Of a stretch of 64,000 nucleotides of DNA, positions 3,616 through 16,207 are shown piece after piece. The notes beneath the pieces are model-generated. The model ran no database searches. It was not told the origin of the DNA and was given only the letters and a program-made list of their open reading frames with translations. The DNA is from Salegentibacter mishustinae (GTDB taxonomy: Bacteria; Bacteroidota; Bacteroidia; Flavobacteriales; Flavobacteriaceae), in assembly GCF_002900095.1 (NCBI RefSeq), contig NZ_LLKN01000002.1:372001-436000 (forward strand), in the 5' to 3' direction. Position 1 is the first letter of the stretch; every line of letters begins with the position of its first letter. The translations under genes were made by a program, and so were the position numbers.

Positions 3616-6600
3616 ATGGGAAATATTCACAAATTTTTAAAACTTACACTTCTTTTCTTATTTACAGGAATAACGGCAACTGCGCAGGTTACTCCCGGCA
3701 AAGAAGAACCTAAATCCCTGGAACATACTTTTTATGTTGCAGGAAATATTGGAAACGATCTTACCGGTGAAGGTCAAAAAATCCTAAAAGCTATTGTAGA
3801 AGCTTCTAAAAAAGATAAGGAAGCAACGCTTTTAGTGCCAGGGAATTTTCTTCCGCCTAAAGGCTTTGCTAAGAACGAAAACGAGCGTGAGACCCAGAAA
3901 CAATTTCTGCAAAAAAATTTACTAAATGCCGTTCAGGAATTTAATGGAACCGTAGTTTTTACTCCCGGGCAAAACGAATGGACAAAACAGGGACAGAACG
4001 CAATAGATGATCTGGAATCTTTTCTTCAGGATAACCAGTCTAACACAGAAGTTTGGCCAGATGATGGTTGCCCTATAGAAAGTGAAGAAATCTCCCCAGA
4101 GGTAATTCTGGTAACTGTAGACACCCAATGGTATTTAGAAAACTGGGACGAACACCCAAATATGAACGCTAAATGTGATATAAAAACCAGGGAACGCTTT
4201 TTTGCAGAGTTTAAAGATGATATTAAAGATGCACACGGAAAAACTATCATTGTATCTATGCAACACCCGGTAATGAGCAATTCAAAAAGATCTTTTACCG
4301 AAAAGATTGGAGGTTTTTCTCCACAGGATTATCAAAATAAAGAGCATAGGTATTTGCGAGGTAGGTTAGAAACTCTGGCCAGCCAGTTTGATAATGTGGT
4401 GTTTGTTTCAGGAAAAGATCAAAATCTTCAATTTTTAGAAGACGACGGTATTCCACAAATTATAAGCGGAAGTGCCGGAAAGCCCGAAAAACTTAGCATT
4501 AGGAAAGAAAATGAACACTTTGGGACTACTAAAAGTGGTTATGCTAAATTAAAACTCTATAAAAATAACCAAACGCTGGTTGAATTCTTCACTATAGAAA
4601 ATAACGAAAATCCCATTTTCAGCAAAACGATTAAAAGCGACGAACCTAACTGGGATGAAATTGATTTTAAAACAAAAGAGGAAATTGGGGATACCATTAG
4701 TGCTTCTATTTACACCGAAGAAGAAACTGATAAATCGGGCTTATATAAATCGCTTTTTGGAGATTTTTACAGGGACGTTTATAGTACAAAAATAAAAGCT
4801 CCTGTACTATTTCTTGATACGTTAGACGGTAACCTTGAACCGCTAAAAGAAGGTGGTGGTATGCAATCGCGTTCCCTGCGATTTATTGCAGACGACAAAA
4901 ACGAATTCACCATACGCGCACTAAAGAAAAGCGCTACCCGTTTCCTCCAATCTGCAGCTATAAAAGATCATTATATAAAGGATTATATAGAAAATACAGT
5001 AGCACAACGCTATGCTTTAGATCTCTTTACCACGGCGCATCCTTATGCTCGATACTCTTTAAAACACATTAACGACTTACTTGAAATAAATGCCGGTAAA
5101 CCACAAATATTCTATATCCCAAAGCAAAAAGCGCTCGGACTGAATAATGATGAATATGGAAATGAACTTTATATGCTTGAAGCTCATGTAGGTGATGAAA
5201 ATAAAGAATTTGAAAAATTTGGTTCCCCTGAAGATATCATTAGTACTCGAGATCTTTTAGCAGAATTAAGAGAGTCTAAAAATATAAAGGCAGATGAAGA
5301 AAAATTTATAAAAAATCGATTGGTAGATATGCTAATTGGTGATTGGGATAGGCATTATGACCAATGGAGATGGGCCTTGCATACTCAAAGCGATGGCACC
5401 AAATTTTACAAACCAATCCCAAGGGATAGGGACTTTGCATTCCCAAATTACGACGGTTTTATTCCAGACTTAGTGAAACTGGGCTTGCCAATTGTGAGAA
5501 AAATGGAAACCTACGACGATAACGTAGATAACGTAAAATGGTTTAACCTTTCTGGTTATCCTTTAGACCAGCGATTGTTGAAAACTTCTGATTGGGAAGA
5601 TTGGCAGGAGCAGGTAGAATTTATTCAATCTCAACTTACCAACGAAGAAATAGAAACTGCTTTTGAAGCTTTGCCCGAAGCAGTTCAGGATGAAACCATA
5701 GAAGATATTAAAGCACACCTTAAGGCCAGGAGAGATAATTTAGGCGACATTGCTCAGCGGTATTACAACTACCTCCAGGAATTCCAGGTATTCTCCGGAA
5801 CCGAGGAAGATGATGTTTTTAATATTGTAAGAAAAGAAAACGGTATTACTGCTATAGAGATGATTAATGAGGATGGAAAAAAAGTCTTCAGTAAATCTTA
5901 TAATTCTGAAGCTACCGATGAGATTTGGGTCTACGGGCTTGATGGTGATGATACTTTTAAAGTTACCGCGGATGGAGAAAATCTTATTAGAATAAATGTT
6001 ATTGGCGGGGAAGAAAATGACATTTACGATTTTGAAAATACTCGACAAATTAAGTTGTACGATCATAAAAGCAAGGAAAACACCATTACAAATCCAAAGT
6101 CTAAAAAATGGTTGGTAGATGATTACGAGATCAACACCTACGACCCAGATAAGCGCAAGCAAAGTGAGAATAAAATTATGCCTCATGTAGACTATAATGG
6201 TGACGAAGGACTTTCCCTTGGGCTAAAAGACACCTACACAACTTACGGGTTAACTAATAATCCGTTTAACACACAACATAGTTTTGATGCTTCTTACTAT
6301 TTTGCCACAAATGGCTTCGAGGTAGGCTACAGGGGTGAGTTCGCACATATTTTTTATAACTGGAACCTTGGAATAGATGCTCGTTATACTAGCCCTAATT
6401 TTGCTTTAAACTACTTTGGTAAAGGCATAGAATCAGAAAATTTACGAGACAGTTTTGGGCGTGATTATAACCGTGTAAGGATCGAGCAATGGGAGTTTGC
6501 ACCATCACTTATTTGGCGGGGAAAATCTGGCGGAAGCTTTTACGTAAAGCCAATGATACAATCTAAGGAAGTATCTTATGACGAAGAACGTTTTATAGCC

Positions 6601-7206
6601 GATGCTTTTTCTGAAGAGAACGACCTTTTTAATCAGCAGCTTTATGCCGGTGGGGAATTAAACTATCATTATGAGAACAGGGATAACCCGGCATATCCTG
6701 CTCGCGGATTTGAAGCAGATATTACCACGGGTTACAAAACTAATATTGACGAATACAATAATGAATTCGCCTATATAAGTCCGTCTCTAGCCATAGATTA
6801 TCCATTACACGAAAGCGGAATCGCTGTTCTGGCCACCAAAATAGGTGGAAAAGTTATTTTTGGTGATAATTACGAATATTACGATGGAGCCATTCTTGGG
6901 GGAAATTCAGATTTAAGAGCCTACCGATGGGAACGTTTTAATGGGAAACAATCTTTCTACCATTCTACCGATCTTAGAGTTGGGCTAAGCCGATTTAAAA
7001 CGAATTTCATTCCGTTGCAAATTGGGGTAAGCGCAGGCTTCGATTACGGTCGTGTGTGGGCTGAAGGTTCCACTTCAGAACAATGGCGAAATAATTATGG
7101 TGGATCTATCTGGATTAATGGCTTTAGCGCTTTTACCGCAAACACAGGATATTATTATGGTGACGATGGGGGAAGATTAACCTTCACTTTCGGGTTCAAA
7201 TTCTAA
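3616..7206 (+). CDS. Large surface protein: degenerate metallophosphatase domain, kinase-like segment, C-terminal BamA/D15-like beta-barrel
   Basis: The 1196-aa product has a signal peptide (1-24, ending TATAQ). Residues 35-300 follow the calcineurin-like metallophosphatase family of Bacteroidota, but the metal-binding blocks are altered. GDxG is GNIG (43-46), GDN is GNF (76-78), GNHDW is GQNEW (118-122), HHP is QHP (216-218) and GHEH is GKDQ (266-269). The domain is therefore probably inactive. A middle part has SRSLRF (418-423) with IRALKK (433-438), GDWDRH (575-580) and PRDRDFAF (602-609), resembling the lysine, catalytic loop and metal-Asp of atypical kinases of the CotH/FAM20/HipA kind. 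From about 855 on, strands ending in TFTFGFKF fit an outer-membrane barrel. The kinase reading is inference. Confidence 0.75.
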   Translation: MGNIHKFLKLTLLFLFTGITATAQVTPGKEEPKSLEHTFYVAGNIGNDLTGEGQKILKAIVEASKKDKEATLLVPGNFLPPKGFAKNENERETQKQFLQKNLLNAVQEFNGTVVFTPGQNEWTKQGQNAIDDLESFLQDNQSNTEVWPDDGCPIESEEISPEVILVTVDTQWYLENWDEHPNMNAKCDIKTRERFFAEFKDDIKDAHGKTIIVSMQHPVMSNSKRSFTEKIGGFSPQDYQNKEHRYLRGRLETLASQFDNVVFVSGKDQNLQFLEDDGIPQIISGSAGKPEKLSIRKENEHFGTTKSGYAKLKLYKNNQTLVEFFTIENNENPIFSKTIKSDEPNWDEIDFKTKEEIGDTISASIYTEEETDKSGLYKSLFGDFYRDVYSTKIKAPVLFLDTLDGNLEPLKEGGGMQSRSLRFIADDKNEFTIRALKKSATRFLQSAAIKDHYIKDYIENTVAQRYALDLFTTAHPYARYSLKHINDLLEINAGKPQIFYIPKQKALGLNNDEYGNELYMLEAHVGDENKEFEKFGSPEDIISTRDLLAELRESKNIKADEEKFIKNRLVDMLIGDWDRHYDQWRWALHTQSDGTKFYKPIPRDRDFAFPNYDGFIPDLVKLGLPIVRKMETYDDNVDNVKWFNLSGYPLDQRLLKTSDWEDWQEQVEFIQSQLTNEEIETAFEALPEAVQDETIEDIKAHLKARRDNLGDIAQRYYNYLQEFQVFSGTEEDDVFNIVRKENGITAIEMINEDGKKVFSKSYNSEATDEIWVYGLDGDDTFKVTADGENLIRINVIGGEENDIYDFENTRQIKLYDHKSKENTITNPKSKKWLVDDYEINTYDPDKRKQSENKIMPHVDYNGDEGLSLGLKDTYTTYGLTNNPFNTQHSFDASYYFATNGFEVGYRGEFAHIFYNWNLGIDARYTSPNFALNYFGKGIESENLRDSFGRDYNRVRIEQWEFAPSLIWRGKSGGSFYVKPMIQSKEVSYDEERFIADAFSEENDLFNQQLYAGGELNYHYENRDNPAYPARGFEADITTGYKTNIDEYNNEFAYISPSLAIDYPLHESGIAVLATKIGGKVIFGDNYEYYDGAILGGNSDLRAYRWERFNGKQSFYHSTDLRVGLSRFKTNFIPLQIGVSAGFDYGRVWAEGSTSEQWRNNYGGSIWINGFSAFTANTGYYYGDDGGRLTFTFGFKF

Positions 7207-7220
7207 AAAAATACTACTTT

Positions 7221-7257
7221 TTTCCACACACCTGTGGAAACACTATTGTGGAAAACA
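7221..7257. repeat. TTTCCACA/TGTGGAAA inverted repeat plus a further copy
   Basis: Just after the surface-protein stop, TTTCCACA (7221-7228) and TGTGGAAA (7233-7240) form an 8-bp hairpin with a 4-nt loop. A further TGTGGAAAA lies at about 7247-7255. With the preceding Ts, the first copy reads TTTTCCACA. As a hairpin it may end the upstream transcript. As nonamers they resemble DnaA boxes. The roughly 150 bp that follow are very AT-rich and contain the pair TTTAGCGT / ACGCTAAA. Confidence 0.45.
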
Positions 7258-7408
7258 AATAGTTTTAAACTTAAAGAAATTATTAATTCAAGTAATATTT
7301 AGCGTAAAACACTAAAATTCAGTTAATTATTAACGCTAAACCCTAAGCTATTATAATTTAAGATTTTAGGTAAGGAAATTGGATTTAAGGAGATAAATAG
7401 ATATAAAA

Positions 7409-8638
7409 ATGTCTCCAGATATAAACCTTATTCATAACCTGTTGCAAGCGATAATGCTTATTCCGTTTTTGCACCTGTTGAATCAATATATTTTTAAAAA
7501 GATTAGTGAAAAGCACGATTTTTTCTCAGCCAACCTGATGAATAAATTGTTCTATTACCACCTAATCTTTGCCGGAATTTATTATACCTATGCGTTCTTT
7601 AACCCATCCGATTCTAAAAGGTATTTTAGAGTACCGGGGAAAGAAGGTAAAACCTGGGACGGCTTTTTAGAAACCGGTACTTCCTTTATAGATTTTATCT
7701 CCTATCCGTTTATTAATTTCTTCGGATTCAGTTACGAAATGATGATGCTGCTTTTTAGCTGGATTGGCTTTATGGGCTTTGTTTACGCCTATTTATTTTT
7801 CAAAGAAAACATTGCGATAAATATCAAAATATTCAAAAAAATAGATTTTTTAGTACTGATTCTTTTCCTACCCAATATGCACTTCTGGACGGCTTCTTTA
7901 GGCAAAGGCGCACCTATTTTTCTGGGATTAATGTTATTTGCTTATGCACTTAGAAAACCCAAAAACAGGATTATTAGCTTAAGCCTGGGATCACTCCTGG
8001 TATTCGCCATTAGACCACATATGTTCTTATTACTGGCCGGTGCAGGGATGTTGAGTATATTTATAAATAAGAACCAGATAAGCTTAAAGCAAAAAGCCAT
8101 TTTCGTGGGGGCCATTACAGGCGTTTTATTGCTTTTTCACAAGCAAATTCTTGAAGTAGTAAACCTTGGAAATTCTCAAAACTTAATCGCCGATTTTCTT
8201 TCTTTTACCGAAAACAGGGCGAAAGATTTGGATAATGCGACTTCAGGAGTACCAATGACTGACTACTCAATTATTGAAAAGTTCTTTACGTTTTGGTTTA
8301 GACCTTTATTTTTTGATGCGCCGGGAATTCTTGGAGTGATCGTATCTATAGAGAATTTTATCTATTTACTGTTGTTCGGAAAGTTGTTTAAAAAGAGCTT
8401 CTTTGGATTTCTAAAAACAGCACCGGGACACGTAAAACTAAGCCTGATCTTATTTTTCACCACCTCTTTCGCAATGACTTTTGTAATGTCTAACCTGGGA
8501 ATAATTTTAAGACAGAAATCTATGATCATGTATTTCTTGTTTTTTGTGATTTATTATTTCCTGGCTTACGAAAAAGACACCGTTTTCAGATTAAAACAAG
8601 AGGTGACTGGAAGAAAACCATTGGCAAGAGCTGCCTAA
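7409..8638 (+). CDS. Polytopic inner-membrane protein of unknown function (polysaccharide-polymerase-like layout)
   Basis: The 409-aa protein is strongly hydrophobic, with roughly nine to ten predicted membrane segments. A central loop holds the conserved-looking stretch NMHFWTASLGKGAPIF and then IRPHMFL. This arrangement recalls EpsG/Wzy-type polymerases and related glycan-assembly membrane proteins, but I cannot assign a family with certainty. A good ribosome site, AAGGAG, lies about 15 bp before the ATG. It stands alone, with 200 bp of AT-rich DNA upstream and a convergent gene downstream. Confidence 0.6.
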   Translation: MSPDINLIHNLLQAIMLIPFLHLLNQYIFKKISEKHDFFSANLMNKLFYYHLIFAGIYYTYAFFNPSDSKRYFRVPGKEGKTWDGFLETGTSFIDFISYPFINFFGFSYEMMMLLFSWIGFMGFVYAYLFFKENIAINIKIFKKIDFLVLILFLPNMHFWTASLGKGAPIFLGLMLFAYALRKPKNRIISLSLGSLLVFAIRPHMFLLLAGAGMLSIFINKNQISLKQKAIFVGAITGVLLLFHKQILEVVNLGNSQNLIADFLSFTENRAKDLDNATSGVPMTDYSIIEKFFTFWFRPLFFDAPGILGVIVSIENFIYLLLFGKLFKKSFFGFLKTAPGHVKLSLILFFTTSFAMTFVMSNLGIILRQKSMIMYFLFFVIYYFLAYEKDTVFRLKQEVTGRKPLARAA

Positions 8639-8675
8639 TTGTTCATTAATGTCATGCGGACTTTAATGCTGAAAG

Positions 8676-9146
8676 TTATTCCCAGAATTCATCTTCCCAA
8701 AGGCCACAGGAAATTTCTTTCTCGTGGTGTTCCTGAATATGCTGAAGTTCTTCGGTTGAAGCTACTTCCTGGATTTTATTAAAAAGCACCCGCTCTTCAA
8801 ACCTGATATGGCCTTCCAGATCATTCTGAATCTTTTCCAATGTAAGCGCTATTTCATTCTTCTGAAGAAATAATGAGGCAAGATGCTCGTGCTCTTCCAG
8901 CGCCTGTTTTACCAAATCATTTTCAGCACCCAAAACTGGAAAAACATATTTTTCTTCAATTTTAAAATGCTCTTCTAACTGGTTTTCCCAAAACCAATCG
9001 GTATAATTTTTAATTCGCTGCGGTTCGATTCCTTTTTCAATACCTTTTCTAATATTCCAGCATAACAAAAGGCTTTGGTGGTGCTCCCTGCTTAGCGGCT
9101 GAATGGCTTTATGCCTTTTTATAGGTTTGCCTTTTGGTGGTATCAT
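8676..9146 (-). CDS. Hemerythrin/HHE cation-binding domain protein
   Basis: The 156-aa soluble protein is alpha-helical with the histidine/glutamate pattern of HHE domains: REHHQSLL near residue 20, EEHFKIEEKYVFP in the second helix, EEHEHL in the third and HIRFEERVLF in the fourth. Such proteins bind a di-iron centre and are linked to oxygen, nitric oxide or redox sensing and repair. It sits 27 bp downstream of a VOC protein on the same strand, so the two are probably co-transcribed. The exact role is unknown. Confidence 0.85.
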   Translation of the reverse strand: MIPPKGKPIKRHKAIQPLSREHHQSLLLCWNIRKGIEKGIEPQRIKNYTDWFWENQLEEHFKIEEKYVFPVLGAENDLVKQALEEHEHLASLFLQKNEIALTLEKIQNDLEGHIRFEERVLFNKIQEVASTEELQHIQEHHEKEISCGLWEDEFWE

Positions 9147-9173
9147 AATATGAAAAGTTGAAATAACAAAGAT

Positions 9174-9545
9174 TTATACGTGCTGATCTACCAAAATTGC
9201 ATTGCCATCAGGATCTAAAACCACGAAACTTCCGGGACCCGAAGTATTTTCATCGGCTTCGCTTTCAAAACTCACTCCTTCCTCTTTTAAATTTTTCTGA
9301 ATTTCCCTAACATCATCAAATTCATCTAACTTATTGGCACTGGCATCCCAGCCCGGATTAAAAGTGAGAATATTATTTTCGAACATCCCCTGAAACAAAC
9401 CAATTAAGGAATCTCCATTCTTCATAATAAAATAATTCTTTTCAAAATCTCCGGCAAAAACCCGGAACCCCAGCTTTTCATAAAACGCCTTTGAAGCCTT
9501 AAGATCTTTCACGCTAAGACTTACTGAAAATGCACCTAATTTCAT
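9174..9545 (-). CDS. VOC (glyoxalase/bleomycin-resistance fold) family protein
   Basis: The 123-aa protein starts MKLGAFSVSLSVKDL and shows the VOC pattern: SKAFYEKLGFRVF in the first half and GPGSFVVLDPDGNAILVDQH at the C terminus. Members are glyoxalases, dioxygenases, isomerases or resistance proteins, and this short single-domain form usually has no assigned substrate. It probably forms a two-gene unit with the downstream HHE protein. A terminator hairpin separates it from the upstream GH97 gene. Confidence 0.85.
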   Translation of the reverse strand: MKLGAFSVSLSVKDLKASKAFYEKLGFRVFAGDFEKNYFIMKNGDSLIGLFQGMFENNILTFNPGWDASANKLDEFDDVREIQKNLKEEGVSFESEADENTSGPGSFVVLDPDGNAILVDQHV

Positions 9546-9629
9546 AATTCTTGTTTTTAAATTATTCTGATAACTAAAGCTAAGCTTCCTTGATAAAGCT
9601 ATAAATTATTTCTTGATTTATAATAAAAT

Positions 9630-9657
9630 AAAACCCCCGCCAAATTGACGAGGGTTT
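9630..9657 (-). terminator. Intrinsic terminator after the GH97 gene
   Basis: On the minus strand AAACCCTCG pairs with the later GCGGGGGTTT, and the stem is followed by TTTTATTTTATT. It sits 60 bp beyond the GH97 stop and before the VOC gene, so it should end the GH97 transcript. Confidence 0.75.
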
Positions 9658-9715
9658 CATATTATTGAAGCTTTTGCAGTATACAATCTACATTATACAG
9701 TAATACATTTTTTAA

Positions 9716-11895
<2,180 letters not shown>

Positions 11896-14821: not shown

Positions 14822-16207
14822 TTAGCCCAAAAGCGCTTCGTATGGGTCTTCCAGTGCTTTTACCAGCCAATTCATAAAACCAGCTCCATCTGCACCATCT
14901 ATTAGACGATGATCGTAAGATAAACTAAGCGGAAGTATACTACGAGGTTCAAACTTACCATCTATATAAACCGGTTTGGTAGTTGCCCGGGAAATACCGA
15001 GAATCGCAACCTGCGGATGGTAGACGATGGGTGTAAAATTAGTACCTCCAATACCGCCAAGGTTCGAGATAGAAAAATTGCCTCCTTCCATATCTTCTTT
15101 AGATAGTTTTTGTTCCCGAGCTTTTTCTGCTATTTCTGAAATTTCTACCGAGAGATCCTTGATGCTTTTTTGATCTGCATTTTTAATTACCGGCACTAAA
15201 AGTCCCTCTTCTGTAGCCACTGCAATATTGATATTTACATATTTTTTAAGGATCATTTCTTCCTTATCCATATCTATACTCGCATTGAATGTTGGAAACT
15301 TATGCAAAGCTGTAGCCACAATCTTGGTAAGTATGGCTGTTAGTGTGAGTTTACCTCCGGCTTTTTCAACTTTCTCATTATGATCTTCTATATAGGTTTC
15401 TACTCCAGAAATATCAGCTTCTCCAAACTGAAACACATGCGGAATAGATTGCCAGGAAGCCAATACATTTTTGGCTGTGGTTTTTTTAATACTATTTAGT
15501 GGTTTAGTTTCTACCGCTCCCCACTTACTAAAATCGGGTAATTTAGCTTGGCCGGAACTGCTCTTTGTACTACCGCCTTCTTTGTACTTTTTAACATCTT
15601 TATCTGTAATTCTTCCACTTTCGCCGCTACCATTTATTTCTTTTAAATTCACGCCAAGTTCCCGAGCTAATCGCCTTACTCCAGGAGAAGCATAGACTTC
15701 GTTTGAAGATGCTTCATCGGTATCCTTATCTTTTTTAGACTTAGTGTCTTTATTTTTTTTCTTCTCATCTCCGTCCTTTTCATCCTCATTCTCATCATCT
15801 TCTTCCTGCTCGTCATCTTTTTCCTCAGACTTGGATTCGTCTTTTTTATTTTCTTCAGAATCGGAATCATCTTCGTTTCTTTCAGATTCTTCCTTTTTCT
15901 TTTTTGAAGTATCCTTTTCTTTATCTGTAGTTTCCTTTTCCTCTTTTTCTTCTGAATCCTCATCATCATCGTCATCTTTCAGGATAATGATAACATCGCC
16001 CACGTTCACTTCATCACCTTCGCTAACCTTTATTTCTTTAATTGTACCTCCTGAAGTAGCAGGAACTTCAGCCGTAGCTTTATCTGTTTCTACTGAAATC
16101 ACCGACTGATCTTCTTCAATTTTATCTCCCTTAGAAACCAGGATTTCTGAAATAACAGCGGTCTCTACACCTTCAGATATTTGCGGAACTTTTATCTCTT
16201 TTGCCAT
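14822..16207 (-). CDS. aceF: Dihydrolipoamide acetyltransferase (E2 of pyruvate dehydrogenase)
   Basis: E2 carries acetyl groups on lipoyl-lysine and passes them to CoA. The 461-aa protein has one lipoyl domain (about 1-78, lipoyl Lys43 in TDKA), a long linker (about 79-168), a peripheral subunit-binding domain (about 171-207, SPGVRRLARELGV) and the catalytic domain with SYDHRLIDGADG (active His433). The linker is odd. Instead of the usual Ala/Pro-rich hinge it is about 90 residues almost entirely Asp, Glu, Lys and Ser. Only one lipoyl domain is present, against three in Escherichia coli. It sits 11 bp after aceE. Confidence 0.95.
   Translation of the reverse strand: MAKEIKVPQISEGVETAVISEILVSKGDKIEEDQSVISVETDKATAEVPATSGGTIKEIKVSEGDEVNVGDVIIILKDDDDDEDSEEKEEKETTDKEKDTSKKKKEESERNEDDSDSEENKKDESKSEEKDDEQEEDDENEDEKDGDEKKKNKDTKSKKDKDTDEASSNEVYASPGVRRLARELGVNLKEINGSGESGRITDKDVKKYKEGGSTKSSSGQAKLPDFSKWGAVETKPLNSIKKTTAKNVLASWQSIPHVFQFGEADISGVETYIEDHNEKVEKAGGKLTLTAILTKIVATALHKFPTFNASIDMDKEEMILKKYVNINIAVATEEGLLVPVIKNADQKSIKDLSVEISEIAEKAREQKLSKEDMEGGNFSISNLGGIGGTNFTPIVYHPQVAILGISRATTKPVYIDGKFEPRSILPLSLSYDHRLIDGADGAGFMNWLVKALEDPYEALLG

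Follow-up and report, generated by a model that had tools for sequence, protein, structure and literature searches.

What can a predicted outer-membrane protein do with a phosphatase domain that has lost its metal ligands? The question is raised by a gene of the marine bacterium Salegentibacter mishustinae at 3616..7206 (+) of the window, the 64,000-nucleotide stretch of contig NZ_LLKN01000002.1 (positions 372,001 to 436,000) analysed here. The gene encodes 1196 amino acids (aa) plus stop and carries, in order, a dead phosphatase domain, a kinase-like domain, a beta module and an Omp85 barrel. Our answer, to which we give a probability of about 0.6, is that the protein belongs to a widespread Bacteroidota family, anchored in the outer membrane, whose shared core is a kinase-like domain of the CotH/PI4KII/HipA type with probable phosphate transfer, and that the clade with the dead phosphatase kept the kinase-like site. 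The computed support comes from folds, motif conservation, ligand loss, constraint, paralogy and gene context. An earlier note had reported altered phosphatase blocks, kinase-like motifs and a barrel in this protein; these observations were confirmed, and its interpretation as a whole is supported by our analysis.

The full-length AlphaFold2 model had a mean predicted local distance difference test score (pLDDT) of 85.8 and a predicted template modelling score (pTM) of 0.81, and the model of residues 345-800 reached a pLDDT of 92.2. The kinase-like domain (residues ~376-722; 4741..5781, +; ends placed from predicted secondary structure) was matched by both Foldseek and VIA-align to kinase-like folds of the CotH/PI4KII/HipA type, as the earlier note had expected of this middle region. 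Alignment A1 comprised the window protein and 76 of the 79 loci (numbered with L) of the first relative search, with L026, L064 and L078 left out and L001-L004 unused. Across its 77 rows, G413, G414, G415, Q417, R434 and K438 were invariant in the glycine-rich loop GGGMQS (413-418) and the following strand that ends in Lys438 (IRALKK; together 4852..4929, +), which were placed by conservation and modelled strands. D578 in the catalytic-loop-like GDWDRHYDQWR (residues 575-585; 5338..5370, +) and D604 and D606 in the metal-Asp-like IPRDRDFAF (residues 601-609; 5416..5442, +), both placed by conservation and the CotH profile alignment, were likewise invariant. In a wider alignment K438 was retained in 123/125 rows, D578 in 119/125 and D604 in 125/125. 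The earlier note had asked whether D578, D604 and D606 are invariant, and in A1 they are. By analogy, K438, D578 and D604 would correspond to the strand-3 lysine, the catalytic aspartate and the metal aspartate.

Several observations weigh against a working kinase. Kinases of the CotH type usually carry Asn where the window protein has Gln583, and this Gln occupies the usual catalytic-loop Asn position in 122/125 rows; D578 is lost in 6/125. E522, present in 124/124 rows of the wide alignment, was replaced by Val in 10 of a later set of 24 intact paralogues and is therefore dispensable. Profile comparison with CotH gave a modest link (P 1.2e-4), which suggests distant kinship only, and that with HipA was weak (P 0.043 in one run, 0.58 in another), each of the two profiles containing one empty row. 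Sequence routes through Pfam and the PDB gave the middle domain no kinase family name, nor did NCBIfam; a Pfam search with the 77 A1 members returned no kinase name among the matches listed (25 of 47 weak families). For the window protein, no Pfam family exceeded its cut-off, a CotH match (PF08757) was absent at E up to 10, and a HipA_C match (PF07804) was absent as well. Weak PDB matches by sequence, such as HDAC6, were judged to be chance. Finally, ATP is generally regarded as scarce in the periplasm.

Some of these points would fit a pseudokinase, in which the middle fold binds nucleotide or peptide with no transfer and the protein acts as a receptor or assembly factor on an Omp85 barrel. 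The Gln583 substitution and the rows that lack D578 favour this, as does the statement in the abstract of PMC11116518 that characterised Omp85 proteins assist in assembly or translocation. The invariance of K438, D578, D604 and D606 in A1 speaks against it, and four of the six D578-less rows (L174, L175, L176 and L188; not L197 and L198) stand beside a copy that keeps D578, like an active/pseudo pairing. We consider the pseudokinase possible, at clearly lower odds than phosphate transfer.

At L174, L175 and L176, the stand-alone kinase-like genes come in divergent pairs or triplets: Ser and Arg replace D578 and H580 in one copy, and the neighbour or neighbours keep both residues, an arrangement reminiscent of the active kinase FAM20C and its pseudokinase partner FAM20A. 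L188 (~5600-10800) holds a tandem of two kinase-like barrel genes, of which the first keeps both D578 and D606 and the second carries Glu and Ser at these positions.

The N-terminal domain (residues ~32-343; 3709..4644, +) has the fold of purple acid phosphatases and calcineurin-like phosphoesterases, and none of the seven ligand columns of the two-metal site is kept (0/7), which bears out the claim of altered metal-ligand blocks in an otherwise family-like domain. No match to PF00149, the calcineurin-like phosphoesterase model, was obtained for the window protein (Pfam, E up to 10); paralogue L002 and relative L036 match it above cut-off. Judged by its ligands, the domain descends from the phosphatase family and is not an active member. 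Comparison of nonsynonymous and synonymous substitution rates (dN/dS) indicated constraint on the dead domain, a rough result from pairs restricted to dS 0.05-2 and near saturation. For the four domains, 15, 10, 12 and 15 of 21 Salegentibacter pairs were usable, with 3-8/55 in Gramella/Christiangramia and 38-44/66 in Flavobacterium. What has most likely kept the domain in place is a binding or regulatory role.

To place this loss within the family, ligands were counted in 128 gene pieces. All seven were intact in 54; one piece had six, 6 had fewer, 28 belonged to the dead clade, 29 had a barrel without the phosphatase and 10 lacked both. The 29 fell to 24 after removal of four fragments (L024, L026, L064, L078) and one duplicate (L179, the same locus as L083). 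L214 is identical to L006, L215 to L035 and L224 to L020, and the 40 loci L174-L213 were hand-picked for variety. In a 74-row tree built with phosphatase columns excluded (and L003, L009, L024, L026, L043, L064, L071 and L078 left out), the 28 dead rows of the group formed one clade with a Shimodaira-Hasegawa-like approximate likelihood ratio test (SH-aLRT) value of 100. A single origin for all dead phosphatases was rejected, given other ligand losses in L065, L074 and L076, which lie on long branches, in L198 and L204, and in the extra copy at L250. At that last locus (genome G587), an intact phosphatase-kinase-barrel gene adjoins the second copy with only some ligands.

The source genome itself contains two further genes related to the middle part. 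One, L002 (1239 aa), shares the architecture of the window protein and keeps seven of seven phosphatase ligands; the other, L003 (425 aa), is a stand-alone middle domain with a weak HipA_C match (E 0.048; 13.8 bits vs a cut-off of 30.5). A second full-length copy was found in 25 of the 26 genomes with a dead-type copy, the exception being G669, and all 25 of these (L002 and 24 others) keep seven of seven ligands. The lipobox of their Flavobacteriales relatives is also missing from the dead-clade rows. The window protein begins with a type I-like signal peptide (3616..3687, +), read from the sequence and compared with relatives, that has TATA-Q at residues 20-24 and no lipobox Cys. The lipobox pattern was seen in only 1/29 dead rows (L077, upstream of its signal peptide) and in 0/5 of a later set, and was present in 41/41 intact Flavobacteriales rows (a strict pattern caught 35; the other 6 were judged by eye) and, by a loose pattern, in 24/24 fetched intact paralogues; the 41 rows were selected for 6 or 7 ligands, and their ligand conservation is by construction. 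A general rule that intact proteins are lipoproteins was rejected, as L078 shows no lipobox despite its 7 ligands; in a wider set just 8/13 seven-ligand genes had one, that of L200 being doubtful.

The C-terminus (residues ~846-1196; 6151..7203, +) was modelled by AlphaFold2 as a 16-stranded barrel of the Omp85 type, and NCBIfam gave an Omp85 barrel match at the protein end, below cut-off; the outer-membrane barrel of the earlier note thus held up. Between barrel and kinase-like domain lies a beta-strand module (residues ~723-845; 5782..6150, +), placed from modelled strands, with GLDGDDTF and GGEENDIY resembling, by eye, repeats-in-toxin (RTX) motifs; its D779, G797 and G798 were invariant in alignment A2. 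N-terminal domains of Omp85 proteins are periplasmic as a rule. The enzyme-like domain of PlpD, a patatin-like Omp85 protein, is described as located in the periplasm (PMC11116518), and because of this analogy the kinase-like domain probably faces the periplasm at the outer membrane. The surface location given in the earlier note was not supported, the N-terminal domain of PlpD being on the periplasmic side. The Pfam scan of the window protein found no POTRA domain; architectures without POTRA are included in the Omp85 superfamily as outlined by Heinz and Lithgow 2014 (PMC4104836).

The middle domain was matched in 146/395 sampled Bacteroidota genomes and the window protein in 217/299 genomes of its own family, with relatives also in metagenome-assembled genomes of Chlorobiota and Gemmatimonadota. 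In two genomes of one genus the protein is split into three adjacent one-strand genes (L177:5129-9094, +; L178:1841-5793, -), which encode a kinase-like protein of 518-519 aa, a PF00149 phosphatase of 403 aa and an Omp85 barrel of 388 aa. As the three parts are fused in some genomes and adjacent genes in these two, they probably act together. L036 has a ShlB barrel match just above cut-off in addition to PF00149. That the kinase-like part persists across the Bacteroidota even in proteins whose phosphatase is dead or missing hints at phosphate transfer in the envelope that had not been suspected.

Gene neighbourhoods were compared across 121 loci (one duplicate). The main cluster, with homologues in 60/121, is a gene for an HD domain fused to the Pycsar-effector transmembrane domain (PycTM), as at L049:4778-5941 (-). 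Such a gene lies within three genes of 51/54 seven-ligand pieces (exceptions L199, L202 and L213), which are related rows and not 54 independent events, and of 0/28 dead-clade loci. An HD gene was near 19/24 fetched intact paralogues by a crude pattern. Other neighbours were ppk1 (13 loci; by our own estimate chance would give ~0.4 of 121 for such a single-copy gene), SixA-like phosphatase (7), PAP2 (5) and two clusters of SdiA-regulated propellers (29 and 26). A further neighbour, L052:10855-13206 (+), with homologues in 37/121 loci, encodes ~780 aa with no Pfam or NCBIfam match at E 0.001. None of the HD-PycTM, ppk1, SixA-like, propeller or PAP2 genes stands beside the window gene, and the sole PycTM gene of the source genome adjoins L002. 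For the ancestral type, and not for the window's copy, such neighbours indicate a part in the handling of phosphate or polyphosphate. Elsewhere in the window, 14822-16207 (-) encodes a dihydrolipoamide acyltransferase-like protein, named by eye, whose linker is very long, acidic and rich in lysine.

These neighbours are what would favour an enzyme of kinase fold that catalyses a different reaction (AMPylation or the like) or uses a different donor, for instance polyphosphate, as part of polyphosphate and phosphate handling. Neighbourhood is no proof of chemistry, and the window gene lacks such neighbours while the PycTM gene adjoins the intact paralogue; we find this explanation unlikely. That the kinase-like match is a fold-search coincidence, with the domain binding substrate in a translocation system of the Omp85 type, draws on the missing sequence-level match, on Foldseek TM-scores by query length of 0.25-0.35 in the top five rows and on ribosomal proteins lower in the list, and is highly improbable given the agreement described above of two fold searches and the conserved motifs.

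Under the phosphate-transfer reading, the mechanism that we infer, including membrane side, catalysis, donor, substrate, direction of loss and binding role, would run as follows. The Omp85 barrel would hold the domains at the outer membrane, facing the periplasm, and the kinase-like domain would take phosphate from a nucleotide or a different donor and pass it to a protein, lipid or glycan of the envelope. The intact phosphatase that many relatives carry on the same chain may counteract this transfer or act in phosphate processing. Following a gene duplication, the window's clade would have given up the metals of the phosphatase, along with the lipid anchor and the customary neighbour gene, and kept the kinase-like site; the transfer side alone could then be active, with the dead domain binding a ligand or partner. 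A bolder form, which we regard as speculative, sees opposed kinase and phosphatase on one barrel as a reversible periplasmic phosphorylation switch, tied to inner-membrane HD-PycTM and polyphosphate metabolism with polyphosphate as a possible donor, and the window's clade as a one-way kinase with the dead phosphatase as sensor.

Known systems share parts of this architecture. The spore-coat kinase CotH (5jd9, 5jda) differs from the window protein by Gln583, by the fusion to phosphatase and barrel and by the absent Pfam CotH match. Type II phosphatidylinositol 4-kinase (PI4KII) is a eukaryotic lipid kinase without barrel or phosphatase; HipA and CtkA, matched by Foldseek at E 3e-4 and 1.6e-5, have no barrel. 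FAM20 was reached by Foldseek (DrFam20C1, E 6e-3) and was absent among the 50 VIA-align matches listed. Plasmodium GAP50 (3tgh), a membrane anchor of eukaryotic origin, has neither a barrel nor a kinase-like domain. PlpD, as described in PMC11116518, likewise places an enzyme-like domain N-terminal to the barrel, and differs in its lipase-like domain, its POTRA domain and the lack of a kinase-like domain. A Riemerella metallophosphoesterase (Niu et al. 2021), which a review lists as a type IX secretion system (T9SS) effector, was set aside as a characterised relative, and no kinship is claimed. A close description is the 'Metallo' Omp85 subfamily of Heinz and Lithgow 2014 (PMC4104836), defined by a PF00149 domain before the Omp85 barrel; the domain is called a metalloprotease, a label given in section 10 of that article that recurs in the introduction of PMC11116518. 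The word 'kinase' occurs 0 times in the main text of PMC4104836. The likeness, drawn from the subfamily description, lies in PF00149 plus barrel in L002 and L036; the window protein has homologous domains, but its phosphatase is dead and has no PF00149 match. The same article's 'noNterm' subfamily, a barrel alone said to resemble Metallo barrels, is by description like the 388-aa barrel gene of L177/L178.

Among the titles and abstract openings listed by searches of the open literature, which largely leaves out subscription papers and preprints, no Omp85 barrel with a kinase-like domain appeared. The kinase-like domain that sits on this barrel anchor was previously unnamed. To our knowledge, kinases anchored in the outer membrane are hardly known at all. 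If our reading is true, a kinase-like domain lies at the core of a family that occurs in over a third of the sampled Bacteroidota genomes and that has probably been described, in part, as a 'metalloprotease' of the outer membrane. The family would then offer natural comparisons between intact and dead phosphatases within one genome, between active-looking and pseudo neighbours and between fused and split forms, together with a conserved partner gene.
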